From Actinomycetes bacterium (lineage in GTDB: Bacteria; Actinomycetota; Acidimicrobiia; Acidimicrobiales; Bog-793), in assembly GCA_021809425.1 (NCBI GenBank), contig JAKBAA010000010.1:1-56858 (forward strand): a DNA stretch of 56,858 bases, given 5' to 3'. Positions 3,829 through 40,592 of this stretch are shown here, in pieces. The notes below the pieces were generated by a model, which searched no databases, was not told the DNA's origin, and saw nothing but the letters and a program-made list of their open reading frames with translations. The position numbers and the translations under genes are program-made. Position 1 is the stretch's first letter. Each line of letters begins with the position of its first letter.

Positions 3829-6726
3829 ATGACCGACGTCGAGCGCGCCCTTCCCCGGCTCAGCGACCTGGTCGGTGGCCGACCGCCCTTCGTCGATCGC
3901 CACGTCGGGCCGGGCGGGGCCGACTCGGCGGCGATGCTGGCCGAGCTGGGACTGGCGAGCCTGTCGGCGCTGCTCGATGCCGCCCTTCCGCCGGCGATCC
4001 GGCTGGCCCGCCCCCTCGCCCTGCCGCCGCCGGTGTCCGAGGGAGAGGTGGTCGCCGAGCTTCGAGCGCTGGCCGGGGAGAACGCCACGTGGACGTCGCT
4101 CATCGGGATGGGCTACGCCGGCACGATCACCCCGGCGGTGCTCCGCCGGAACGTGCTCGAGAACCCGGCCTGGTACAGCGCCTACACCCCCTACCAGGCG
4201 GAGATCAGTCAGGGGCGCCTGGAGGCGTTGCTGACGTTCCAGACGATGGTCGGCGACCTGACCGGGCTGGAGGTGGCCAACGCCTCCCTGCTCGACGAGG
4301 CGAGCGCCGCCGCCGAGGCGATGGAGATGTGCCGGGCGGCGGCGCGGGCGGGGGAGGGCGGCGTGTGCTTCGTCGACGCCGCCTGTCACCCGCCGACCAT
4401 CGAGGTGGTGCGGACCCGCGCCGCGGCGCGCCGGGTGACGGTGGTGGTCGGCGATCCGGAGGTCGATCTGGGCGAGGGTCCGGCGCCGTTCGGCGTGCTG
4501 CTGCAGCACCCCGGCACGGCCGGCGAGGTACGCGACCTGGCTCCGGTCGTGGCGGCAGCCCATGCCCGCGGCGCCCTGGTCGCCGTCGCCGCCGACCTGC
4601 TCGCCTGCACCCTGGTGGTGCCCCCCGGCGAGCTGGGGGCCGACCTGGCGGTGGGGTCGACCCAGCGCTTCGGCGTGCCGCTCTTCTACGGGGGCCCGCA
4701 CGCCGCCTACCTGGCGGCCCGCCCCGACCTGCTGCGGCTGGTGCCCGGCCGTCTGGTCGGTCGGTCGCGTGACGCCGAGGGGCGCCCGGCGTTGCGCCTG
4801 GCGCTGCAGACGCGCGAGCAGCACATCCGGCGCGAGCGGGCCACCAGCAACATCTGCACCGCCCAGGCGCTGCTGGCGGTGATGGCCGGGTCGTACGCCG
4901 TCTACCACGGCCCGGACGGTCTGCGGGCGATCGCCGCCCGGGTGCACCGCCTGACGGTGCTCCTCGCCGAGGGGCTCCGCCGGGCCGGCTGGACGGTAGC
5001 GCCGGCGGCCTACTTCGACACGGTCGCCGTCGACGCCGGCGAGCGGGCCGAGGCGGTCGTCGCTGCCGCCGCCGCCCGGCGGATCAACCTTCGCCGGCAC
5101 CCCGACGGGCGCCTCGGGATCAGCCTGGACGAGACGTCGACGGAGGAGCTCGTCGGCCAGCTGCTCGACTGCTTCGACGCCGCCGGCGTCGACCTGGCAC
5201 AGCTCGACCAGGTCGCCGAGAGCCCGCTCGGTCGTCACCTGCGGACCAGCCCGTACCTGGAGGCGCCCGTCTTCCACGCCTACCGGTCGGAGACGGCGAT
5301 GGTTCGCTACCTTCGCCGGCTGGCCGACCGCGACCTGGCGCTCGACCGGGCGATGATCCCGCTCGGGTCGTGCACGATGAAGCTGAACGGGGCTGCCGAG
5401 CTGAGCGCCCTGTCGCTTCCCGGCTTCGCCGACCTCCACCCGTTCGCCCCGCCCGACCAGGCGGCCGGCTACCGGCGGATGATCGGCGAGCTCGAGGGGT
5501 GGCTGGCGGAGATCACCGGCTACGACACCGTGTCGGTGCAGCCCAATGCGGGCTCCCAGGGAGAGCTGGCCGGCCTGCTGGCGATCCGGGCCTACCTGGC
5601 GGCGCAGGGCGACGGCGGTCGCGACCTGTGCCTGCTGCCGACGTCAGCCCACGGCACCAACGCGGCGAGCGCCGCCATGGCCGGGCTACGGGTGGTGCCG
5701 GTGGCCTGCGACGCCGACGGCAACGTCGACCTCGACGACCTCGACAGCAAGCTGGCGGCCAACCCCGGCGCCGTGGCGGCGGCCATGCTGACGTACCCGT
5801 CGACCAGCGGGGTGTACGAGGAGGCGATCGTCGAGATCTGCTCCCGCGTCCATGCCGCAGGCGGCCAGGTGTACCTGGACGGGGCAAACCTGAACGCGCT
5901 CGCCGGCTGGTCGCGCCTCGGCGAGCTCGGGGGTGACGTGTCGCACGTCAACCTGCACAAGACGTTCTGCATCCCGCACGGCGGCGGCGGTCCGGGCGTC
6001 GGGCCGATCGGGGTCAAGGCCCACCTGTCCCCGTTCCTGCCTGGCTCGGCTGGCTTCGCCGGGCTGCTGGAGGGCCGAAGGGGGGGAGCGGTCGCCGGCG
6101 CCCCGTTCGGGTCGCCCGGCGTGCTGTCGATCTCGTGGGCCTACCTCCGGCTGATGGGTGCCGAAGGTCTGGCGGCCGCTACGGCCGGGGCCGTGCTGGC
6201 GGCCAACTACGTGGCACGCCGGCTGGCCCCGCACTACCGGGTCCGCTACACCGGCCGCAACGGCCTGGTCGCCCACGAGTGTGTGCTCGACCTTGCCGAG
6301 CTGACGGCGCGCACCGGGGTGACCAACGAGGACGTCGCCAAGCGGCTCGTCGACTACGGGTTCCACGCCCCGACCATGTCGTTCCCGATCGCCGGCTGCC
6401 TGATGGTCGAGCCGACCGAGTCGGAGCCGAAGGCCGAGCTCGACCGGTTCTGCCGGGCGATGATCGCCATCCGGCACGAGATCGACGAGATCGCCTCGGG
6501 GTCGGTGGCGCTCGAGCAGAGCGCCCTCCGCCGCGCCCCCCACACGGCGGCCGCCGTCACCGACGACCGGTGGGACCGCCCGTACGACCGCCGCCGTGCC
6601 GCCTTCCCGCTCGGTGACGGGGCGGACAAGTACTGGCCGCCGGTGGCCCGAGTCGACAACGTCGCCGGCGACCGCCACCCGGTGCTGCGCTGGTCGCCGG
6701 GCGGGCCGGATGCCGAGGGCGGCTGA
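3829..6726 (+). CDS. gcvP: Glycine dehydrogenase (decarboxylating), glycine cleavage P protein
   Basis: Protein of 965 residues, the full fused form (the two-gene form has halves of about 450 residues). This PLP enzyme decarboxylates glycine and passes the aminomethyl group to lipoyl-GcvH. The N-terminal half carries GYAGTITPAVLRRNVLENPAWY and the C-terminal half the cofactor-binding site, with the PLP lysine at about K711 in NLHKTFCIPHGGGGPG. The start ATG is 2 bp after the gcvT stop and both genes share the glycine riboswitch. The stop lies in a small inverted repeat that also holds the stop of the convergent dioxygenase gene. All expected regions are present. Confidence 0.96.
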   Translation: MTDVERALPRLSDLVGGRPPFVDRHVGPGGADSAAMLAELGLASLSALLDAALPPAIRLARPLALPPPVSEGEVVAELRALAGENATWTSLIGMGYAGTITPAVLRRNVLENPAWYSAYTPYQAEISQGRLEALLTFQTMVGDLTGLEVANASLLDEASAAAEAMEMCRAAARAGEGGVCFVDAACHPPTIEVVRTRAAARRVTVVVGDPEVDLGEGPAPFGVLLQHPGTAGEVRDLAPVVAAAHARGALVAVAADLLACTLVVPPGELGADLAVGSTQRFGVPLFYGGPHAAYLAARPDLLRLVPGRLVGRSRDAEGRPALRLALQTREQHIRRERATSNICTAQALLAVMAGSYAVYHGPDGLRAIAARVHRLTVLLAEGLRRAGWTVAPAAYFDTVAVDAGERAEAVVAAAAARRINLRRHPDGRLGISLDETSTEELVGQLLDCFDAAGVDLAQLDQVAESPLGRHLRTSPYLEAPVFHAYRSETAMVRYLRRLADRDLALDRAMIPLGSCTMKLNGAAELSALSLPGFADLHPFAPPDQAAGYRRMIGELEGWLAEITGYDTVSVQPNAGSQGELAGLLAIRAYLAAQGDGGRDLCLLPTSAHGTNAASAAMAGLRVVPVACDADGNVDLDDLDSKLAANPGAVAAAMLTYPSTSGVYEEAIVEICSRVHAAGGQVYLDGANLNALAGWSRLGELGGDVSHVNLHKTFCIPHGGGGPGVGPIGVKAHLSPFLPGSAGFAGLLEGRRGGAVAGAPFGSPGVLSISWAYLRLMGAEGLAAATAGAVLAANYVARRLAPHYRVRYTGRNGLVAHECVLDLAELTARTGVTNEDVAKRLVDYGFHAPTMSFPIAGCLMVEPTESEPKAELDRFCRAMIAIRHEIDEIASGSVALEQSALRRAPHTAAAVTDDRWDRPYDRRRAAFPLGDGADKYWPPVARVDNVAGDRHPVLRWSPGGPDAEGG

Positions 6727-6738
6727 GCCTCAGCTGCC
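6718..6738. terminator. Small inverted repeat at the gcvP/dioxygenase convergent junction
   Basis: GGCGGCTGAG and CTCAGCTGCC form 10-bp arms with one mismatch around a single base. The element spans both stop codons, whose genes are only 3 bp apart. It might act as a weak two-way terminator. There is no T-tract. Confidence 0.3.
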
Positions 6739-7674
6739 GGCCGGGGCGAGGACGACGTCGCGTTCCACCGAGTACCAGGTGCCGCCCGCCCCGATCGGCG
6801 CGCCCGGCTCGTCCAGTCCGCTGGCCCCGCCCGTCTGGCTGGCCCCGCCCGTCTGGCTGGCCCCGCCCGTCTGGCTGGCAGGGTGCGGTTCGAAGTGACA
6901 GATGAGCGAGTCCTTCACCCCGAACACGGCGTCGCTGTCGAGGTAGGCGCTCTCGTCGTCGAACCAGTGGGTGGTGACCGTCCGGTAGCCGGGGGCCGAC
7001 ACGATGAGGTGGACGTGGGCTGGCCGCCACGGGTGGCGGGCAGCAGCGCGGAGCAGGGCGCCGACCGGGCCGTCGTCGGGGACGGTGTAGTCGGTCGGTC
7101 GGAGCGTCCAGAACGAGAAGTTCCCGCCGCTGTCGGTGTGGAAGCGCCCGCGCAGGTTGGTGTCGGGCTGGTCGGGGTCCTCGACGGCGTACCGGCCGTT
7201 GGCGGCGTTCTGCCACACGTCGAGCAGGGCGCCGGCCACCGGTCGGCCGTCGGAGGAGAGCACCCGACCGGCGATGCGAGCCGGCCGTCCCGGTCCGGCC
7301 ACCTCCACGATCGAGCTGCCGAGCGGGCGCTCGGGGGCGTCGGGCACGTAGAACGGCCCGAGCACGGTCGACTCGGTCGTACCGGGTGCGCCGGTGTGGT
7401 CGAGCAGGTCGACGAGCATCGACACGCCGAGGGTGTCGGACAGCAGGATCAGCTCCTGGCGGTGCGCCGTGCACGTCTGGCCCGCCCGGGTGAGGAAGTC
7501 GACGGCGGCCGCCCACTCGTCGACGGTGAGGCCCGTCTCGGTGACGTAGCCGTGGAGGTGGCGGACGAGCTCCTCGAGCAGGAACCGGAGCCGGTCGTCG
7601 GGCGTTCGGGCGAAGCTGGCTGCCGCACGAGCCGTCAGCTGAGCGGGCGTCGTCGCCGACGCGGCGTCGGTCAT
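6730..7674 (-). CDS. Intradiol ring-cleavage dioxygenase, hydroxyquinol 1,2-dioxygenase type
   Basis: Protein of 314 residues. Intradiol dioxygenases use non-haem Fe(III) to open catechol-type rings between the two hydroxyls. An N-terminal helical dioxygenase domain is followed by the catalytic domain with LGPFYVPDAP, NLRGRFHTD and the segments carrying the two Tyr and two His iron ligands (TDYTVPDDGPVG and HPWRPAHVH). The RQELILLSDTLGVSMLVD segment and DGPVGALL resemble hydroxyquinol (1,2,4-trihydroxybenzene) dioxygenases more than catechol ones; substrate is an inference. The C-terminus carries three exact 18-bp repeats coding ASQTGG, an unusual insertion between the core and the last strand. 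The ATG at 7674 is preceded by TACCGT with a 6-nt gap, suggesting a leaderless transcript. No maleylacetate reductase or monooxygenase gene is adjacent. Confidence 0.85.
   Translation of the reverse strand: MTDAASATTPAQLTARAAASFARTPDDRLRFLLEELVRHLHGYVTETGLTVDEWAAAVDFLTRAGQTCTAHRQELILLSDTLGVSMLVDLLDHTGAPGTTESTVLGPFYVPDAPERPLGSSIVEVAGPGRPARIAGRVLSSDGRPVAGALLDVWQNAANGRYAVEDPDQPDTNLRGRFHTDSGGNFSFWTLRPTDYTVPDDGPVGALLRAAARHPWRPAHVHLIVSAPGYRTVTTHWFDDESAYLDSDAVFGVKDSLICHFEPHPASQTGGASQTGGASQTGGASGLDEPGAPIGAGGTWYSVERDVVLAPAGS
6821..6874. repeat. Three exact 18-bp tandem repeats inside the dioxygenase gene
   Basis: The unit CTGGCCCCGCCCGTCTGG occurs at 6821-6838, 6839-6856 and 6857-6874. Read on the minus strand it adds (ASQTGG)3 in frame near the C-terminus. 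Confidence 0.95.
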
Positions 7675-7712
7675 GGCGGCACGGTAGCCGCCCGACCGCC
7701 CCCGTGCCGGGG

Positions 7713-8840
7713 TCAACGTCTCGGGCGGCAGTCAGCCGGGAACGTTGCCAGCGGCGAGGTAAGGAAGCGCCAGCCGAAGTAGGCGGCGGCCACCCGCTCG
7801 GCGCCGCGGACGGCTGCCGGGTCGTCGAGGCGCGCCTCGTCGGCGCATGCGGCTGCCACGACGGTGGCCGGTCGGGCGGCGGCGCCGAGCCGGAGCAGGC
7901 GGCTGTCGAAGCTGGCGTACAGGTCCCAGGCGGCCACGTTGACCCTGCCGCCGGCGCAGACCGGTCGGGGGAACGCCTCGTTGGTGGCTGCCGCCGCCCA
8001 GCACTCGTCGACGGCCGGCAGTCCGGTGGCCGGCAGCAGCGGCGTGCGGGCCACCCGGTCCGCCTCGGCCAGGGCGAGCGGGCCGCCCGGCCGGGTGAGG
8101 CGAGCGAGCGGGGCGAACGGGACGAGGACCGACGGCGTTCCGACCCCGTAGGGCCCGACCTGGTAGCTCGAGAAGGTGAGCTGCAGGCCGAACGGGGTGA
8201 CGGCCCACGCCTGGAAGTTGACGAGCCGCGCCTCCGTGCCGGCGTCGAGCATGGTCGTCGGGTCGAGAGCGACCCCGAGCTGGCGTCGCAGCAGCTGCCG
8301 GCTCTCCCTCGACAGGAACGGCAGGTACCGGTCGCCGGTCCGGAAGATGCCCGGCAGGTGCCACCGGGCGCCGTTGGCCATGTCGAAGGTGTCGGTCGTC
8401 ACGAGTGACACGCTGTGGGCGGCGCCTGCCGGGAAGGTCGACGTGCGCTCGGTGAAGCCCACGACGTCGGGCGTCACGATGTCGGTCTGGACGGTTGCCT
8501 CGATGGTCGACGCCCCCGTCCCCTTCGGGAGGGGTCCGGCGGGCAGCTGGCGGACGAACCCGGCCACCATGGCGTCGGCCTCGCCGCGCAACGTCGCGTC
8601 GATCCGGCGAGCGGCGGCGGTACGGCCGACCACCACCGCGTAGGCGACGTCGGCCCGCCAGGGGGACGGGCGGCTTCCGTGCTCGGAGATGCGCGCCTCC
8701 CGTATGGCCGGTGTTGCGGCCGGTGTGGCGGCCGGCGTGGCGGCCGGCGTGGCGGCGGCGGTGCCGACGCCGACCCCGGCGAGCAGCCCGGCGAGGACCC
8801 CGGCGAGGACCCCGGCGAGGACGGGGGGGCGCCGGCCCAC
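7713..8840 (-). CDS. Secreted DUF3298 (RsiV-like) domain protein, downstream copy
   Basis: Protein of 375 residues if it starts at the GTG at 8840, one base after the stop of its upstream paralogue. The N-terminus (arginines followed by an AGVLAG-type hydrophobic repeat) looks like a signal peptide, followed by an ATPA repeat. The mature part carries the DUF3298 pattern also found in the extracytoplasmic part of RsiV: an acidic LxxIFRTG segment, then NFQAWAVTPFGLQLTF and a YQVGPYGVGTPSVLVPF strand. The transmembrane anti-sigma portion of RsiV is absent, so anti-sigma activity is not supported. Cysteines near the C-terminus could form disulfides. Function unknown; probably a cell-surface or lipid/peptidoglycan-associated protein. 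Confidence 0.75.
   Translation of the reverse strand: MGRRPPVLAGVLAGVLAGLLAGVGVGTAAATPAATPAATPAATPAIREARISEHGSRPSPWRADVAYAVVVGRTAAARRIDATLRGEADAMVAGFVRQLPAGPLPKGTGASTIEATVQTDIVTPDVVGFTERTSTFPAGAAHSVSLVTTDTFDMANGARWHLPGIFRTGDRYLPFLSRESRQLLRRQLGVALDPTTMLDAGTEARLVNFQAWAVTPFGLQLTFSSYQVGPYGVGTPSVLVPFAPLARLTRPGGPLALAEADRVARTPLLPATGLPAVDECWAAAATNEAFPRPVCAGGRVNVAAWDLYASFDSRLLRLGAAARPATVVAAACADEARLDDPAAVRGAERVAAAYFGWRFLTSPLATFPADCRPRR
8707..8822. repeat. 12-bp tandem repeats coding the signal peptide and linker
   Basis: GCCGGCGTGGCG-type units at about 8707-8760 code (ATPA)n on the minus strand, and CCGGCGAGGACC-type units at about 8776-8822 code (VLAG)n, which forms the hydrophobic core of the signal peptide. 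Both unit lengths keep the frame. Confidence 0.85.
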
Positions 8841-8841
8841 C

Positions 8842-10053
8842 TCAGCCCACCGGCAGCCCGCGCGACGGCGGACAGCGGGCCGGCCAGCCGGCGAGGGCGG
8901 TGGCGGCCGGGAACGGCCAGCCGTAGTAGCGGTCGACCAGCCCCACCCAGCTCCGGGCGTCGGCCGTCGGCAGCGCGAAGGTGGCGCCGAGCAGGCAGAG
9001 TGCCGACCGCACCGTCGCCGGCGTCGCCGCCGGGCCGGCGCCGAGAAGGACGTCGCCGTAGCCGCCCAGCCCGTACCAGGCGGCGGCATTGAGCCGGCCG
9101 TCGGCGCACGACATGGCCGCTGGAGCGGTTGCCGTGGCCGTCTGGTAGCACTCGTCGACGCTCGACGGCACGGTCGCCGGCAGGAGCGGCATCCGGACGT
9201 GGGCGAGCCGGGCGGCGTATGCAAGCGGGCCGGCGGGCCGGGCGACGCCGGCGAGGTCGGCGAAGGGAAGGACGACGGTCGGCGCCCCGATCACGTACGG
9301 GCCGACGGCGTCGTCCCCGAAGGCGACCTCCAGCCCGAACGGCGTGAGCGCCCAGCCGGCGAAGTTGGCTGCTCGCGGGGCCGTTCCGGGGTCGACCATC
9401 GCCGCAGGGAGGGCGGCCGGCGGGTACTGGACGGCGAGATGGGCACGGGTCAGCCGTGACAGGACCCCCAGGTAGCCCGCGCCCGGCCGGAACAGGGAGG
9501 CGAGCGTCAGCCTGCTCCCGGTCGGGGCGTCGAACGTGATGGTGGCGACCGTGTCGTACGGGTGGGCGGCGCCGGCGTCGAAGGTGGTGGAGCGTTCGGT
9601 GAAGGCCACGTAGCCGGACGACACGAGGCTGGTGTCGAAGCGGACGCTCAGGGTCGACACCGGCGGCAACCCCTTCGGCACCGGTCCGTCGCCGAGCTGG
9701 TGGCGGAAGGCGGCCACCTCCCGGTTGGCCATGGCTGCAAGGGCGGCGTCCACCCGGGCGGTCCCCGCCGCGGTGCCCCCGCGGAGCACCGGGACCTCGA
9801 TGCTGGCCTGCCACGGGGCCGGGCTCGTGCCGTGCTCGCTGCGCGCCGCCAGCGCCAGCGCCAGCGCCGGTGCCGCCACAGCTGCCGGTGCCACCGACGG
9901 CCGGGCGGCGAGGGCCACCGACGGCCGGGCGGCGAGGGCCACCGACGGCCGGGCGGCGAGGGCCACCGCCGGGAGCCCGGCGAGGAAGGCGGCGCCGGCG
10001 AGCGTCGTAGCCAGGCGGGAGATCGGGCGACGACCGGGGCGGCGGTGCTGCAC
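8842..10053 (-). CDS. Secreted DUF3298 (RsiV-like) domain protein, upstream copy
   Basis: Protein of 403 residues, paralogous along its full mature length to the next gene: compare TFDAGAAHPYDTVATITF with TFPAGAAHSVSLVTTDTF. The start GTG at 10053 gives an N-terminus with RRPGRRP followed by a hydrophobic stretch (LAGAAFLAGLPAVALAA), a plausible signal peptide. Three 24-bp repeats then code (RPSVALAA)3. The DUF3298 region includes LTLASLFRPGAGYLGVLSRL and VGPYVIGAPTVVLPF. TAGACT lies 8 nt before the GTG, suggesting a leaderless mRNA. The pair probably arose by local duplication and is transcribed as one unit. Function unknown. Confidence 0.75.
   Translation of the reverse strand: MQHRRPGRRPISRLATTLAGAAFLAGLPAVALAARPSVALAARPSVALAARPSVAPAAVAAPALALALAARSEHGTSPAPWQASIEVPVLRGGTAAGTARVDAALAAMANREVAAFRHQLGDGPVPKGLPPVSTLSVRFDTSLVSSGYVAFTERSTTFDAGAAHPYDTVATITFDAPTGSRLTLASLFRPGAGYLGVLSRLTRAHLAVQYPPAALPAAMVDPGTAPRAANFAGWALTPFGLEVAFGDDAVGPYVIGAPTVVLPFADLAGVARPAGPLAYAARLAHVRMPLLPATVPSSVDECYQTATATAPAAMSCADGRLNAAAWYGLGGYGDVLLGAGPAATPATVRSALCLLGATFALPTADARSWVGLVDRYYGWPFPAATALAGWPARCPPSRGLPVG
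9891..9968. repeat. Three 24-bp tandem repeats after a signal peptide
   Basis: The 24-bp unit beginning CCACCGACGGCCGGGCGG occurs exactly at 9891, 9915 and 9939. On the minus strand it adds (RPSVALAA)3 in frame immediately after the predicted signal peptide of the upstream DUF3298 protein. Confidence 0.95.
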
Positions 10054-29524: not shown

Positions 29525-29586
29525 GGCGACGAGGATACAGGTGCCATCCGCCCGAACGGGGTTGGCGCTCCTCTAGCCTCGTGGAG

Positions 29587-31713
29587 GTGACGCAGGAGGC
29601 GGAGATGGCCCAGCAGCTTTGTGCGTCGAGCGACCCGCCCGGGCCTGCGGGCTTCGGGCCCGACCGGTTCCTCAACCGGGAGCTCTCCTGGCTGGAATTC
29701 GCCGACCGGCTGCTCGACCTGGCGAGCGACCCGCGGCGCCCGCTGCTCGAACGGGTGAAGTTCCTGGCCATCTTCTCGACGGGCTGCGACGAGTTCTTCC
29801 AGGTCCGGGTGGCCGGGCTGCACGACCAGGTGGCTGCCGGGCTGCGCAAGCGGTCGGCCGACGGCCGGAGCGCCTCGGAGCAGCTCAAGGTGCTGCGCGA
29901 GAAGGCGGCTGCCCTCGTCGAGCGGCAGTCGGCCATCTTCGTCGACGAGGTCCGGCCGGCCCTGCAGGCGGCCGGCATCCGCGTCACCGACTACGACCAG
30001 CTCGACGAGGCGTCGCGGCGCCGCTTCGCCATGGTCTTCGAGCGGGAGATCTACCCGGTCCTCACCCCGCTCGCCGTCGACCCGGGCCACCCGTTCCCGT
30101 ACATCTCCAACCTGTCGCTCAACCTGGCCGTGCTGGTGGAGGATCCGCGTCGGGACGACCGGCGCTTCGCCCGGGTCAAGATCCCCACCTTGCTGCCCCG
30201 CTTCGTGACCATCCCCGAGGGTGGCGACCTCGTGCCGCTCGAGCAGGTGATCGCCGGCAACATCGCCCACCTGTTCCCCGACATGACGGTCGGCGACCAC
30301 TACACGTTCCGGGTCACCCGCAACGCCGACCTCGACCTCGAGGAGGGCGAGGCCGACGACCTGTTGGCCGCCGTCGAGGTCGAGCTCCGCCGGCGCCGCT
30401 TCGGGCGTGCCGTCCGCCTCGAGGTCGAGCCCGGGGTGAGCCGGGAGGTGCTGGAGCTGCTGCTCGACGAGCTCGAGCTGTCCCCCGAGGACGTCTACGC
30501 CACGGCGGCACCGCTCGACCTCGGCCAGCTGTGGCAGATCGCCTCGCTCGACCGGCCCGACCTGCAGGAGCCGCCGTGGGCGCCGATGACCCCGCCCCGG
30601 CTCGCCACGGCGGGCGACGAGCCGGTGGACCTGTTCGCGGCGCTCCGCGAGCGGGACGTGCTCGTCCACCACCCCTACGACTCGTTCGCCACCTCCGTCG
30701 AGGCGTTCCTCCAGCAGGCGGCCGACGACCCGGACGTGCTGGCCATCAAGCAGACCCTGTACCGCACCTCCGGCGATGCCACGATCGTGGCCGCCCTGGC
30801 GCGGGCAGCCGAGGCGGGAAAGCAGGTGGCGGCCCTCGTCGAGGTCAAGGCCCGCTTCGACGAGCAGCGCAACATCGTCTGGGCACGCCAGCTGGAGCAG
30901 GCCGGCGTCCACGTCGTGTACGGGGTGGTCGGCCTGAAGACCCACGCCAAGGTGATCCTCGTGGTGCGCCGCGAGGAGGACGGCATGCGCTGCTACTGCC
31001 ACGTGGGCACCGGCAATTACAACGCCGACACGGCCCGGGCCTACGAGGACATCGGGCTGCTGTCGACCGACCCGGCGCTCGGCGAGGACCTGATCGACCT
31101 GTTCAACCACCTGACCGGCTTCTCCCGGCCGACCCGTTCCCGCTTGCTCGTCGTGGCCCCGGAGCGGTTCCGCCCGTGGTTCGTCGAGCAGGTGGCAGCC
31201 GAGGCCGACAAGGGGCGCGACGGGCGGATCGTCGTCAAGTGCAACGGGCTGACCGATCCGGGGGTGATCGACGCCCTGTACAGCGCCTCCCAGGCGGGCG
31301 TGCCGATCGACCTGGCCGTCCGGAGCGTCTGCTCGCTCCGTCCGGGCGTGCCCGGGCTGTCGGAGACGATCCGGGTCCGCTCGCTCGTCGGCCGGTTCCT
31401 CGAGCACTCCCGGCTCTACCGATTCGGCAACCCGCCCGATGCCCGGTACTTCATCGGCTCGGGCGACCTGATGGAGCGCAACCTCGACCGGCGGATCGAG
31501 GCGCTGGCGCCGGTGCGGGACCCGGAGCTGTGCCAGCGGCTGGAGGACGTGCTGACCCTCGTGCTGGAGGACGACACCGCCACCTGGGAGCTCGGGGCGG
31601 ACGGTGGTTGGCGTCGAGTGGCCGAGGTACGTGGCGTGTCGGCCCAGCGCCGGCTCCAGGAGCTGGCCGTCGAGCGGCATCGCCGCCGGCGGCTGCCCGA
31701 GAGCCTCGACTGA
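29587..31713 (+). CDS. ppk1: Polyphosphate kinase 1
   Basis: Protein of 708 residues from the GTG at 29587; it would be 702 from the ATG at 29605. PPK1 makes long-chain polyphosphate from ATP reversibly, through a phosphohistidine. RFLNRELSWLEFADRLLDLA is the signature N-terminus. The catalytic phospholipase D-like domains show VGLKTHAKVILVVRRE (with the phospho-accepting His) and CHVGTGNYNADTARAYEDIG, then the second motif region with YFIGSGDLMERNLDRRIEAL. The start is ambiguous: TAGCCT at 29574-29579 fits a leaderless GTG at 29587, but AGGAGG sits 5 nt before the ATG at 29605. It is followed 6 bp later by the exopolyphosphatase gene. Confidence 0.95.
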   Translation: MTQEAEMAQQLCASSDPPGPAGFGPDRFLNRELSWLEFADRLLDLASDPRRPLLERVKFLAIFSTGCDEFFQVRVAGLHDQVAAGLRKRSADGRSASEQLKVLREKAAALVERQSAIFVDEVRPALQAAGIRVTDYDQLDEASRRRFAMVFEREIYPVLTPLAVDPGHPFPYISNLSLNLAVLVEDPRRDDRRFARVKIPTLLPRFVTIPEGGDLVPLEQVIAGNIAHLFPDMTVGDHYTFRVTRNADLDLEEGEADDLLAAVEVELRRRRFGRAVRLEVEPGVSREVLELLLDELELSPEDVYATAAPLDLGQLWQIASLDRPDLQEPPWAPMTPPRLATAGDEPVDLFAALRERDVLVHHPYDSFATSVEAFLQQAADDPDVLAIKQTLYRTSGDATIVAALARAAEAGKQVAALVEVKARFDEQRNIVWARQLEQAGVHVVYGVVGLKTHAKVILVVRREEDGMRCYCHVGTGNYNADTARAYEDIGLLSTDPALGEDLIDLFNHLTGFSRPTRSRLLVVAPERFRPWFVEQVAAEADKGRDGRIVVKCNGLTDPGVIDALYSASQAGVPIDLAVRSVCSLRPGVPGLSETIRVRSLVGRFLEHSRLYRFGNPPDARYFIGSGDLMERNLDRRIEALAPVRDPELCQRLEDVLTLVLEDDTATWELGADGGWRRVAEVRGVSAQRRLQELAVERHRRRRLPESLD

Positions 31714-31719
31714 CCCCGG

Positions 31720-33306
31720 ATGCGCCTGGCCGCCCTGGACCTCGGGAGCAACTCGTTCCACCTGCTCGTCGTCGAGGCGCGTCTCGACGGCAGCTTCGTC
31801 CCGCTCGCCCGCGAGCGCGAGATGCTCCGCCTCGGCGACCGGGTCGCGCGCGACGGCGAGCTCGGCAGCGAGGCCATCGCCGCCGCCGTCGACGTCGTGC
31901 GCCGGATGAAGGCGGTGGCCGACGCCCAGCGGGCCGACGAGGTGGTGGCGCTCGGCACGGCCGCCCTGCGCGAGGCGCGCGACGGCGTCGAGCTCGCCGA
32001 CCGCATCCGCGAGGCGACCGGGATCGAGATCGAGGTGGTGGACGGGCTGCGCGAGGCCGAGCTCGTCTTCCGGGCGGTCCGCTCGAGCGTGCTCATCGAG
32101 CCGGCGCCGGCCCTCGCCGCCGACCTCGGCGGGGGCAGCCTCGAGCTGATGGTCGGCGACCGCTCCGGGCTGGCCTTCGCCGCGAGCCTCCGCCTCGGCG
32201 TGGGCCGGCTGACGGCCGAGCTGGTGCACACCGACCCGCTGTCGCGCCGGGACCTCGCCCGGCTCCACGAGCGGGTTGCCGCCGAGCTCGCCCCGGCGAT
32301 GCGCGGCGAGATCGCCGACCTCGCGCCCAAGCTGCTCGTCGGGTCGTCCGGCACGTTCCTGTCGCTCGCCCGCATGGCGATCGCCGAGCGCGACGGCCAG
32401 CTGCCGGACGCGCTCAACCAGCTGACCGTGCCGTCGGCCGCCTTCGAGGCGCTCGGCCGCCGCCTCGCCGGCACGACCGCCGACGACCGCCAGCGGATGC
32501 CCGGCTGCGACGTCCGCCGGGCCGAGCTGGTGCCGGCCGGCCTGGTGGTGCTCGAGGAGCTGTTCGCGGCGAGCGGCCTCGACGAGCTGACCCTCAGCGA
32601 GTGGGCGCTGCGCGAGGGCGCGGTCCTCGAGGCGATCGGCGCCCACGACCGGGCCGAGCTGGGGGACGACCCGCGGGCGTTGCGGCGCTTCTCGGTGCTC
32701 TCCCTGTGCCGCCGCTGCAACTGGCGGCCCCGGCACGCCCGCCAGGTCGCCGCCGTCGCCGTCGAGCTGTTCGACGCCCTTTCCGACCGCCACGGGCTCG
32801 GGCCGGACGACCGGGAGCTGCTCGAGCTGGGCGCCCTGCTCCACGACATCGGCGAGCACGTCGCCCGGACCGGCCACGACCGCCACAGTGCCTACCTGAT
32901 CGAGAACGGCGGCCTGCGCGGCTTTTCACCCGACGAGATCAAGATCCTGTCGGTGCTCGCCCGCTACCACATCCGCGGCACCCCCAAGGCGTCGTTCGGG
33001 GCGTTCGGCGGTCTGTCCCGCCCCGACCGGCTGCGCGCCACGGGGCTCACCGCCCTGCTCCGCCTGGCCGACGCCCTCGACGCCTCGCACGCCGCCCGCG
33101 TCGAGCACTGCGAGATCGGCAGCGCCGGCGACGCCCTCGAGCTCGCCGTGGCCGCCCGCGGGGACGCCGAGCTCGAGCAGTGGATGTTCTGGCGCAAGAA
33201 GGACCTGTTCGAGCGTCACTTCGGCGTCGAGCTGCGCCTCCGGCTCGACGAGCACGGCTCGCACGTGATCGACCTGCTCCACGAGGACGCCTCCGGGCTC
33301 GCCTGA
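31720..33306 (+). CDS. ppx: Exopolyphosphatase / pppGpp phosphohydrolase (Ppx/GppA family) with C-terminal HD domain
   Basis: Protein of 528 residues. The N-terminal ASKHA-fold phosphatase has LAALDLGSNSFHLLVVEA (phosphate loop), VVALGTAALREARDG, DLGGGSLELMVG and SSGTFLSLARMA. From about residue 325 a C-terminal domain follows with an HD signature (LLHDIGEHVARTGHDRHSAYL). Members degrade polyphosphate from its ends or hydrolyse pppGpp. It is immediately downstream of ppk1, so polyphosphate synthesis and breakdown are coexpressed. The HD pair looks intact, so the extra domain may be catalytic, but no activity can be assigned to it from sequence. Confidence 0.93.
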   Translation: MRLAALDLGSNSFHLLVVEARLDGSFVPLAREREMLRLGDRVARDGELGSEAIAAAVDVVRRMKAVADAQRADEVVALGTAALREARDGVELADRIREATGIEIEVVDGLREAELVFRAVRSSVLIEPAPALAADLGGGSLELMVGDRSGLAFAASLRLGVGRLTAELVHTDPLSRRDLARLHERVAAELAPAMRGEIADLAPKLLVGSSGTFLSLARMAIAERDGQLPDALNQLTVPSAAFEALGRRLAGTTADDRQRMPGCDVRRAELVPAGLVVLEELFAASGLDELTLSEWALREGAVLEAIGAHDRAELGDDPRALRRFSVLSLCRRCNWRPRHARQVAAVAVELFDALSDRHGLGPDDRELLELGALLHDIGEHVARTGHDRHSAYLIENGGLRGFSPDEIKILSVLARYHIRGTPKASFGAFGGLSRPDRLRATGLTALLRLADALDASHAARVEHCEIGSAGDALELAVAARGDAELEQWMFWRKKDLFERHFGVELRLRLDEHGSHVIDLLHEDASGLA

Positions 33307-38132: not shown

Positions 38133-39134
38133 GTGCCCGGCCGCTGGCGATCGCAGTCGATCAACGTCCAGTCCCTTCTCGTCGAGGCCTGTTGGCGTCC
38201 GATGGTGGGCGATGTTGCCGGCGACTTCCACGACGTGCTCGACCTGCGAGACGGCCGCATCGGCCTCGTCGTCGGCGACGTCGCAGGGTTCGGTCCGGTG
38301 GCGGCCGAGCGCGCCGAGGACCTACGCGGGGCGATCGCCGTCGCCTTCCGCCGCACCGACCGGCCCGAGCGGGTGCTCGGCGCGCTCGACGAGCGGATGG
38401 ACGCCACCGGCGAGCTGTTCGCCACGATGGCCTGCGCCGTGCTCGACCCGGCGACCCGGACGGTCGAGGTGGCAAATGCCGGTCACCCACCCATCCTTTT
38501 CGCCGACCGCTTCGAGGCGCGCTTGCTCGACGGGCCGGTGCAGCCGCCGCTCGGGTTGGCGGGCGAGCGGCGGTCGGTCGGCTATGCCGTGCCGGGCGAC
38601 GCCGCACTGTTCCTGTACACCGACGGCCTTGTCGAGCGGCGCGGCGAGCGCCTCGACGGGGCGCTCGCCACGCTGGTCGAGGTGGCGCGGGGCCTGCACG
38701 GCTCGGCAGCATCGGCCGCCGAGCTCGCCCGCCGTGCGACCGGTCGGCTCGGACAGCCCGCCGACGACGCCACCGTCGTGTCGGTCCGCTTCCTGCCCGA
38801 GGGCGTCCGCCGCGGTGGCGGACCGGTGGCGGCGATCGGCCCGGCCCGCCAGCAGGTGGTGCTGCGCGTCTACCTCGATCCCCGTGACCTCCGCTCCATG
38901 CGGACCGAGTCGGTGGTCAACGAGCTCGTGCTCCGGGCACGACGTGACCTCGACGTGCGGGCCGAGGTGGTCGACATCGCCGTGCCCGGCGTCGACGTCG
39001 AGACCGACGGCGTGCTCGCCTCGCCGACGATCGTGCGGGCCGCCCCGCTGCCGCGCATCCGCGTCATCGGCTGCGCCCGCGACGCCGAGGAGCTCGCCCG
39101 TGCCCTGCAGCTGCCGCTCGACGAGGAGGCTTGA
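38133..39134 (+). CDS. SpoIIE/PP2C-type phosphatase fused to a C-terminal KaiB-like domain
   Basis: Protein of 333 residues with two parts. Residues about 15-225 are a SpoIIE/RsbU-type Ser/Thr phosphatase with all metal-binding motifs: GDFHD (D31, D34), VVGDVAGFG (D49), LYTDGLVE (D164) and DDATVV (D211, D212). Residues about 240-325 are a thioredoxin-like domain matching KaiB (and the SasA sensor domain): QVVLRVYLDP, RAEVVDIAVPG, LASPTIVRAAPLPRIRVIG, with the ASPT proline and the later prolines conserved. The kaiC gene begins 3 bp after the stop, so they are cotranscribed. SpoIIE phosphatases usually dephosphorylate STAS anti-anti-sigma factors; KaiB and SasA bind KaiC. The natural inference is a phosphatase recruited or switched by KaiC. 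GTG at 38133 follows GGGGAG. The KaiB call is by eye. Confidence 0.85.
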   Translation: MPGRWRSQSINVQSLLVEACWRPMVGDVAGDFHDVLDLRDGRIGLVVGDVAGFGPVAAERAEDLRGAIAVAFRRTDRPERVLGALDERMDATGELFATMACAVLDPATRTVEVANAGHPPILFADRFEARLLDGPVQPPLGLAGERRSVGYAVPGDAALFLYTDGLVERRGERLDGALATLVEVARGLHGSAASAAELARRATGRLGQPADDATVVSVRFLPEGVRRGGGPVAAIGPARQQVVLRVYLDPRDLRSMRTESVVNELVLRARRDLDVRAEVVDIAVPGVDVETDGVLASPTIVRAAPLPRIRVIGCARDAEELARALQLPLDEEA

Positions 39135-39137
39135 GCC

Positions 39138-40592
39138 TTGTCCCTCCCACACCCGCCCCAGGTGGAACGCCTGGCGGTCGGTATCCCCGGGCTCGAGCTC
39201 GTCACCGGCGGAGGGCTCCCGCGCAACCGGCTGAGCCTGGTTGCCGGCACGGCCGGTAGCGGCAAGACCGTGTTCGCCTCCCAGTTCCTCGCCTCTGGTA
39301 TCACCGGGGCGGGCGACGCCGGGGTGTACGTCACCTTGGAGGAGCGACCTGAGGCGATCCGGCGCAACATGGCGTCGCTCGGCTGGGACATCGCTGCCTG
39401 GGAGGCCGAGGGTCGGTGGGCGTTCGTCGACGCCTCGCCGCGCCACCAGATCGACACGGTGTTCACCGGGTCGGACTTCGACCTCGGGCCGTTGCTCGCC
39501 CGCATCGCCACGGCCGTCGCCTCCGTCGGTGCCCGTCGGGTGGCGCTCGACTCGATCGGCGCCCTTGTGGCGCAGTTCGAGCACGTCTACCCGGCTCGCC
39601 AGGCGCTGTTCCAGCTGGCCCAGGCGCTCGAGCAGGCGGGGGTGACGACCGTGATGACCACCGACCGGCTCGACGACTACGGGCCGCTCACCCAGCTCGG
39701 CTTCGAGGAGTTCATCGCCGACAACGTCATCATCTTGCGCAACGCGCTCGAGGGGGAGAAGCGGCGCCGAACCCTCGAGGTGCTGAAGCTGCGGGGCGGC
39801 TCGCACCTCCGGGGGGAGCACCTGTTCACCCTCGTGGGTGGACAGGGCATGGTGGTGGTCCCGGTGGCGGTCACCTCGATCGGCTACGCCAGCTCCACCC
39901 GGCGGCTCACCTCGGGCGTGTCGTCCCTCGACGACATGCTGCGTGGCGGCCTGTTCGAGAAGTCGCTGTGGCTCGTCGCCGGGGCCACCGGAACGGGCAA
40001 GTCGCTGCTGACGGCTCAATTCGTGGCCGGAGGGGTGGCGGCGGGGGAACGGTGCCTGCTGCACTCGTTCGAGGAGAGCCACGCCCAGCTGGTCCGCAAC
40101 GCCGCGGCGTGGGGCGTCGACCTCGAGTCGATGGAGGCAAGCGGCAGCCTCCAGGTCGTCGCCGAGGCCCCCGAGGCGGCCTCGCTGGAGGACCACCTGC
40201 AGCGCATGAAGGCGGCCATCGACCGGTTCGAGCCCGACCGGGTGGCCATCGACAGCCTGACGGCGCTGCAGCGGATCGCCACGGTGAAGAGCTTCCGGGA
40301 GTACGTGCTCGGCCTCACCTTTCACATCAAGCTTCGCTCGATGCTCGGCATGGTGACGAGCACCAGCCAGGACGTCCTCCGGGCCGAGGCGACGAACGAC
40401 CTGCACATCTCGACGATCAGCGACGTCATCACGCTGCTCCACTATCTCCCGGTCGGCGGCGAGCTCCAGCGGGGTGTGCAGATCCTCAAGATGCGCGGCT
40501 CCGATCACGACAAGGCAGTGCGCCGCTTCCAGATCACCGGCCGTGGCATGGAGATCGCTGAGCCCTTTGCCGATATCGACCGGCTGTTCTGA
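39138..40592 (+). CDS. kaiC: KaiC-like circadian clock ATPase/autokinase, two RecA domains
   Basis: Protein of 484 residues. The CI half has Walker A GTAGSGKT (37-44), catalytic E68/E69 in VTLEERPEAI, VMTTDRLDDYGPLTQLGFEE, RNALEGEKRRRTLEVLKLRG. The CII half has Walker A GATGTGKS (282-289), E312/E313 in HSFEESHAQLVRNA, DSLTALQRIA, and the phosphorylation dyad S425/T426 in DLHISTISDVITLLHY, aligned with S431/T432 of cyanobacterial KaiC. KMRGSDHDKAVRRFQI is also conserved. The chain stops near IAEPFADIDRLF, so the C-terminal tail and A-loop that cyanobacterial KaiA binds are missing, as in KaiA-independent systems. TTG at 39138 is supported by AGGAGG at 39125-39130. Length 484 versus 519 in Synechococcus. 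Confidence 0.94.
   Translation: MSLPHPPQVERLAVGIPGLELVTGGGLPRNRLSLVAGTAGSGKTVFASQFLASGITGAGDAGVYVTLEERPEAIRRNMASLGWDIAAWEAEGRWAFVDASPRHQIDTVFTGSDFDLGPLLARIATAVASVGARRVALDSIGALVAQFEHVYPARQALFQLAQALEQAGVTTVMTTDRLDDYGPLTQLGFEEFIADNVIILRNALEGEKRRRTLEVLKLRGGSHLRGEHLFTLVGGQGMVVVPVAVTSIGYASSTRRLTSGVSSLDDMLRGGLFEKSLWLVAGATGTGKSLLTAQFVAGGVAAGERCLLHSFEESHAQLVRNAAAWGVDLESMEASGSLQVVAEAPEAASLEDHLQRMKAAIDRFEPDRVAIDSLTALQRIATVKSFREYVLGLTFHIKLRSMLGMVTSTSQDVLRAEATNDLHISTISDVITLLHYLPVGGELQRGVQILKMRGSDHDKAVRRFQITGRGMEIAEPFADIDRLF

Follow-up and report, generated by a model that had tools for sequence, protein, structure and literature searches.

Can a KaiC-type switch report to gene control through a phosphatase? 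This question is raised by two adjoining genes in a 56,858-nucleotide stretch from an Actinomycetes bacterium of the Acidimicrobiales lineage Bog-793 (assembly GCA_021809425.1, contig JAKBAA010000010.1), which is referred to here as the window. The first gene encodes a SpoIIE/RsbU-type PP2C phosphatase that carries a KaiB/SasA-N-type thioredoxin-like domain at its C-terminus, and the second encodes a KaiC with CI and CII RecA-type domains. Judged from sequence comparisons, the fusion-kaiC unit is real, conserved and, so far as we searched, undescribed, and it suggests a clock-like switch that would report to gene control via a phosphatase and not via the usual histidine kinase. At the sequence level the parts are strongly supported, and from them we infer the circuit that is set out below. 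An earlier note on this DNA had placed the two genes 3 bp apart and had described an intact SpoIIE phosphatase with a C-terminal KaiB/SasA-type domain followed by a full KaiC. The gene boundaries and their spacing are borne out (Table 1), with kaiC lying in the same reading frame one codon past the fusion stop, and the phosphatase and the KaiB-type domain are both confirmed by the searches described next.

Residues ~238-325 of the fusion protein hold a domain that, as judged by sequence, profile and predicted structure, is of the KaiB/SasA-N type. When the window's domain was compared with the PDB using phmmer, the best 11 sequences were all KaiB-type and aligned nearly end to end (top E 1.3e-5; the weakest two of the 11, 0.029 and 0.11); eight are named KaiB, two are named ‘circadian oscillation regulator’ and one is Lpp1115, a Legionella KaiB. 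Searching with a profile built from all six fusion domains returned the same 11 KaiB-type sequences first (best E 1.5e-7), followed by SasA-N (0.008 and 0.022) and then by thioredoxins (0.05 and 0.08), and hhalign matched the fusion domains to 25 KaiB domains from other actinobacterial loci at a probability score of 98.8 and an E of 1e-16. An AlphaFold 2 (AF2) model of the full-length fusion (six sequences) reached a mean predicted local distance difference test score (pLDDT) of 68.6, and all 50 of its listed Foldseek matches are PP2C structures by title. Because its tail was weak (10-residue means of 40-73, the final one 28), the KaiB-type domain was modeled separately. The resulting model, built from 31 sequences (6 fusion and 25 other), has a mean pLDDT of 93 and a strand-helix-strand-strand-strand-helix order. 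In a Foldseek search with this model, KaiB structures take ranks 1 to 9, Legionella KaiB (4kun) and the fold-switched KaiB of 5jwo and 5jwr coming first; SasA-N (1t4y) stands eleventh, directly ahead of thioredoxins. AF2 tends to favor the fold-switched state for KaiB in general, so the model supports membership in the family and not a permanently switched state.

The domain is nevertheless divergent in the window copy. Pfam KaiB (PF07689) gives 20.7 bits (E 3.4e-4) on the whole fusion protein and 24.2 bits (E 2.8e-5) on its C-terminal 99 residues, against a cut-off of 27 bits that is passed by four of the six orthologues; the window copy and that at locus L003 fall below it. In addition, the aspartate that follows the conserved glycine of the IGDLS motif is lost in all six fusions, whereas 24 of the 25 other KaiB domains keep it. 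These two features, and the thioredoxins that stand close behind KaiB and SasA in the structure list, are what could be cited in favor of a thioredoxin-like tail of some other function that lies near kaiC incidentally. We regard that explanation as very improbable, as KaiB chains top the PDB sequence, profile and structure lists obtained with the domain, the hhalign match to other KaiB domains is strong, and the fusion strictly co-occurs with KaiC. At the position equivalent to G89, all six fusions carry alanine, as compared to 15 glycines, 6 alanines and 4 other residues in the 25 KaiB domains. G89A is part of a fold-switched KaiB mutant, according to the portions of PMC6378743 that concern it. 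An alanine that locks the fusion domain in the fold-switched state is only suggestive, since 6 of the 25 other KaiB domains share it.

The phosphatase occupies residues ~15-222 and matches SpoIIE (PF07228) over residues 40-220 with an E of 4e-33, covering profile positions 2-191 of 192. D31, D49, D164, D211 and D212 are invariant in an alignment of the six fusion orthologues, and we take the candidate PP2C metal ligands to be among D31, D49, D164 and D211/D212. The nearest solved relative is Rv1364c (3ke6), an RsbU-RsbW protein. What we take to be the common motif of this PP2C type, GDVxGHG, has Phe, Val or Tyr at its His position in the five aligned fusion copies. Only ~15 residues precede the PP2C domain, and an N-terminal sensor domain would not fit there; the N-terminus itself is conserved, following the pattern M-P-x-R-W-R throughout the six copies and reading MPGRWR in five of them. 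No histidine kinase module was found in the fusion protein, in which SpoIIE and KaiB are the only Pfam domains found.

The pairing of the two genes extends well beyond the window. Fusion and kaiC occur together in the window and in five other metagenome-assembled genomes, and as the arrangement is preserved in every one of these six assemblies (fusion followed by kaiC at 6/6 loci), the pairing goes beyond chance. Full fusions were found in the window's genome and in four others among 60 genomes from relatives, and a wider search of genome contigs added one, at L040. The six loci returned by that search comprised five fusions and L045, which was rejected as a fusion, being an ordinary GAF-SpoIIE of a planctomycete. 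The window's family is represented by 35 genomes, of which five hold the fusion (E <= 1e-45) and the same five this KaiC (E <= 1e-40). The earlier note would have been refuted had residues 235-333 not matched KaiB/SasA-N, or had fusion and KaiC never co-occurred in relatives; both checks came out in its favor, the match to SasA-N being weaker than that to KaiB. The fusion is also the best KaiB match in each of these five carriers (23.9 to 36.4 bits), which leaves that KaiC with no other good KaiB candidate; the one other KaiB match among them is partial (21 bits, in genome G022). Genome G005, which belongs to the same genus as G022, retains a decayed remnant of both genes, at which no KaiB domain or earlier part of KaiC was matched. 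The gene that follows this relic is the same as in G022, the copies of this next gene at L041 and at the relic locus being 86% identical. In the closest pair of intact loci, L042 and L044, the ratios of nonsynonymous to synonymous substitutions (dN/dS) are low for all three parts of the unit (0.05/0.63, 0.08/0.45 and 0.05/0.63, by a simple counting method).

Searches over a broader range returned no additional copies. Across a sample of 395 genomes from the class, which evidently lacks the other known carriers, the fusion profile gave eight matches at E <= 1e-35, the window's being full-length and the other seven covering the SpoIIE part only; no further full fusion was seen there among up to five candidates scored per listed genome. 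Plasmid sequences gave no match to the fusion's KaiB domain. No third gene common to the window and the other copies was found within the limits of the flanks, which are short at L041 and L043, and of the codon-position GC filter used to pick neighboring genes, which overlooked the fusion in L042 and, in L044, the fusion and kaiC alike.

The partner KaiC passes NCBIfam PRK09302 (552 bits, cut-off 408). Both Walker A motifs, the catalytic pairs E68E69 and E312E313, and the S425-T426 dyad are invariant in five aligned KaiCs and present in a sixth, that of L040, so that the Ser-Thr dyad is kept in 6/6 copies; we take the matching phosphorylation dyad to be S431-T432 in cyanobacterial numbering. 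The alignment of this 484-residue protein to a 519-residue cyanobacterial KaiC chain ends at residue 489 of the latter, beyond which, as we assume, lie the A-loop and the KaiA-binding tail; the KaiC studied here lacks both. Of the full KaiC described earlier, the Walker A motifs, Glu pairs and dyad therefore stand, and the C-terminal A-loop and KaiA-binding tail do not. A tree of 22 KaiCs, 6 of them fusion partners and 16 taken from further actinobacterial loci, splits into two groups. All fusion partners stand together in the larger one as a single long-stemmed clade (100/100 support), and the smaller one holds the loci that have two kaiB genes. A single two-domain KaiC was found in the window's genome, with PF06745 matching much more weakly at three further places.

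The missing tail allows a reading in which KaiC keeps no time but is an ATP/ADP or redox sensor or scaffold, which may be true of many ATPases of the KaiC family, and the docked fusion would report the energy state with no phosphorylation cycle. The five family carriers also have no good separate KaiB, and the cyanobacterial competition between KaiB and SasA would hence be absent. We consider this reading distinctly unlikely, as the CII Glu pair and the Ser-Thr dyad are present in 6/6 copies and a pure scaffold would not need them.

Table 1. Coordinates of the fusion-kaiC unit in the window and of related or comparable features at other loci.
Feature	Position	Strand	Basis
Fusion gene, SpoIIE/RsbU-type PP2C + KaiB/SasA-N-type domain	38133..39134	+	GTG start, 333 aa
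kaiC, CI + CII RecA-type domains	39138..40592	+	TTG start, 484 aa
PP2C domain (predicted)	38172..38798	+	PF07228 match, orthologue alignments, nearest solved relative 3ke6
KaiB/SasA-N-type thioredoxin-like domain (predicted)	38838..39131	+	PDB searches, hhalign, AF2 and Foldseek
CI Walker A region AGSGKT	39252..39269	+	Translation; invariant in aligned copies
CII Walker A region GTGKS	39990..40004	+	Translation; G285, G287, K288 and S289 invariant
S425-T426 dyad, equivalent of KaiC S431-T432	40410..40415	+	Alignment to solved KaiC
Two adjoining genes that presumably encode a polyphosphate kinase and a Ppx/GppA phosphatase, which they resemble	29581-33306	+	
rsbV-rsbW-SigB/F/G-type operon	L076 (G000:C154) 315-1830	minus	NCBIfam model scans
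Fusion-kaiC relic	L046 (G005:C32) ~2166-2860	minus	Phosphatase pieces in several frames, KaiC residues 420-479 alongside
kaiC-kaiB-kaiB-(PAS-PAS-GAF-SpoIIE), unfused	L110 (G695:C2) 5319-9740	minus	One tight run, other actinobacterial family
GGDEF-EAL gene beside kai genes	L121 5790-8078		Domain scan
GGDEF-EAL gene beside kai genes	L123 8327-10204		Domain scan
PAS-GGDEF-HD gene beside kai genes	L114 4407-6209		Domain scan
PAS-GGDEF gene beside kai genes	L122 4961-6181		Domain scan
KaiB gene of G639	L125 7869-8174	minus	Fusion-domain profile

How the parts may work together is best described starting from the KaiC ring. We favor, by a modest balance of probability, a two-protein KaiC switch in which a SasA-like, CI-docked PP2C serves as the output and acts on partner switching. 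The KaiC hexamer would hydrolyze ATP in its CI ring and autophosphorylate at S425/T426 without KaiA, and the KaiB-type tail of the fusion would attach to the CI ring in the manner of SasA-N and fold-switched KaiB, such that one polypeptide would be both the reader of KaiC and the output enzyme. RsbU-family phosphatases are activated through their regulatory domains, and on this basis the KaiC ring may gate the PP2C: up to six PP2C domains would be gathered on the ring or released from it, switching their activity. The active phosphatase would then dephosphorylate at least one STAS anti-anti-sigma protein, the simplest candidate being the RsbV of an unlinked operon, and so free an alternative sigma factor. 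Since the family carriers have no good separate KaiB, the fusion domain would also have to fill KaiB's part, if there is one. A place for the fusion to bind would be provided by the CI site for which fold-switched KaiB and SasA compete, the KaiB ring sitting on CI, as given in the sections of PMC6378743 on these complexes.

STAS and anti-sigma genes, which the earlier note had linked to a phosphatase of this type, were sought elsewhere in the window's genome and found. With a threshold of E <= 0.001, five STAS and 18 HATPase_c_2 matches were recorded, several HATPase_c_2 ones lying below cut-off. At L076, a STAS gene, an RsbW-like gene and a sigma gene lie in succession as an rsbV-rsbW-sigB-type operon. 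Its STAS gene scores above the cut-off for TIGR00377 (anti-sigma factor antagonist) and its sigma gene above that for TIGR02980 (SigB/SigF/SigG), and visual inspection of 3.3 kb at this locus revealed no phosphatase gene. On sequence grounds it is plausible that this operon is the target of the fusion.

The same phosphatase could instead act on its own partner. In this alternative, which we hold to be rather unlikely, the KaiB domain would bring the PP2C to the ring to remove the phosphate from S425/T426, and the two proteins would form a kinase-phosphatase pair that resets KaiC and does not report. The constant pairing of the two genes, with no third gene common to the window found, is in keeping with it, as is the retention of the Ser-Thr dyad in 6/6 copies that have lost the KaiA tail, which implies that phosphorylation needs some other control. 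On the other hand, this PP2C belongs to the RsbU/SpoIIE type, for which STAS proteins are the known substrates, and KaiC in known clocks dephosphorylates itself by reversal of the kinase reaction, leaving a phosphatase unneeded. The geometry is also unfavorable, as KaiB sits on the CI ring (in the portions of PMC6378743 describing the complex) and the phosphosites are in CII.

Several observations weigh against an SasA-like output that acts on partner switching. Besides the divergence of the window's KaiB domain below the Pfam cut-off and the loss of the IGDLS aspartate, KaiC scores below the circadian model TIGR02655 circ_KaiC (480.9 bits, cut-off 546.25). At L076, the RsbW-like gene is weakly supported, matching RsbW models at an E of ~1e-8 but far below their cut-offs and giving no Pfam match at 1e-5, and the operon is unlinked to the window. 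Finally, the genome contains eight other matches to the fusion query, to its phosphatase part where listed, and RsbV may consequently have other phosphatases.

To place the fusion among other arrangements of kai genes, we surveyed KaiB regions in two phyla. PF07689 matches 53 of 396 Actinomycetota genomes, 21 of them above the cut-off, and KaiB was detected in 15 of 294 Planctomycetota genomes (E <= 1e-6). Using as a probe a profile of five fusion phosphatases, which may miss distant SpoIIE domains, no SpoIIE fusion was found in 20 KaiB regions from 17 of the 21 above-cut-off Actinomycetota genomes, and no SpoIIE in 18 Planctomycetota regions; for the other four above-cut-off genomes and some second KaiB matches, flanks of up to 1.5 kb were viewed. 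One of the 20 Actinomycetota regions, L110, has an adjoining SpoIIE gene. Ten kai-adjoining genes, hand-chosen from 10 of the 20 regions, were scanned for domains, and the products of seven are histidine kinases or enzymes with GGDEF, EAL or HD domains, which is what an output position would lead one to expect: PAS histidine kinases at L109, L111 and L115, GGDEF-EAL proteins at L121 and L123, PAS-GGDEF-HD at L114 and PAS-GGDEF at L122. The gene scanned at L125 is an oxidoreductase and that at L116 has no domain match. Judging from these neighbors, kai loci seem able to exchange one output enzyme for another, cyclic-di-GMP enzymes included. L110 shows that a phosphatase exists unfused beside kai genes, in the slot that is elsewhere taken by a histidine kinase or GGDEF protein. 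The proposal in the earlier note that the phosphatase is an output arm is partly supported, and gains from this unfused kaiC-kaiB-kaiB-SpoIIE run and from the L076 operon. As a separate observation, the KaiB gene of G639 at L125 scores higher with the fusion-domain profile (50 bits) than any other match that is not itself a fusion, and it adjoins a KaiC whose dyad is Ser-Ala.

By joining a putative KaiC-docking domain to an enzyme, the fusion singles out one particular output arm, and the type of enzyme points to alternative sigma factors; the KaiB fold is here combined with an enzyme that is not a histidine kinase, and a two-gene system is compact enough for rebuilding in the test tube. A more ambitious proposal, which we advance tentatively as possible though not probable, is a minimal two-protein KaiC timer in which one polypeptide takes the place of KaiB, of SasA and of the response regulator. 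A permanently fold-switched KaiB domain would hold it on the KaiC ring, its PP2C would be switched by the phosphorylation or ATPase state of KaiC, and its output would be a partner switch that controls a sigma factor. If true, a single pathway would join the Kai clock to a stress response of the SigB type.

No description of a KaiB-phosphatase fusion was found among the papers listed from the open-access literature, subscription journals and preprints being outside the scope of the search. Compared with RsbU, RsbP, SpoIIE and Rv1364c, the fusion shares the PP2C type and the pattern of aspartates, but differs from them in that its regulatory part is a C-terminal KaiB-type domain; we know of no RsbU/RsbP/SpoIIE-type phosphatase described with such a domain. 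KaiB itself belongs to the same domain family and provides the closest solved chains, with fold-switched KaiB among the best by structure, but the domain of the fusion is attached to an enzyme, has lost the IGDLS aspartate and has alanine at the G89-equivalent position (both 6/6). The comparable actinobacterial kaiC-kaiB-kaiB loci encode a KaiC of another clade than the fusion partners. An extra gene beside the kai genes is also seen in the kaiC1-kaiB2-kaiB1-kaiR1 locus of M. extorquens AM1, although kaiB is separate there, as outlined in the relevant part of PMC8069551. An older link between clocks and RsbU is the recurrence of the KaiA C-terminal fold in the RsbU N-terminus, reported in the sections of PMC11372060 on that fold; it concerns a different domain, and the fusion has ~15 residues before its PP2C. 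The closest parallel is SasA, in which a KaiB-type thioredoxin-like domain is likewise covalently joined to an output enzyme that reads KaiC, and whose structures are among the matches to the fusion domain (1t4y and 6x61 included). According to the parts of Schmelling 2017 (PMC5520375) that treat them, the KaiB-like domain is absent from SasA homologues outside the cyanobacteria, where central output factors are missing as well. The fusion differs from SasA in that its KaiB-type domain is C-terminal instead of N-terminal, its output enzyme is a PP2C and not a histidine kinase, and its family carriers have no good separate KaiB. By this analogy, a SasA in which the kinase has been swapped for a phosphatase would be the most economical reading of the fusion.

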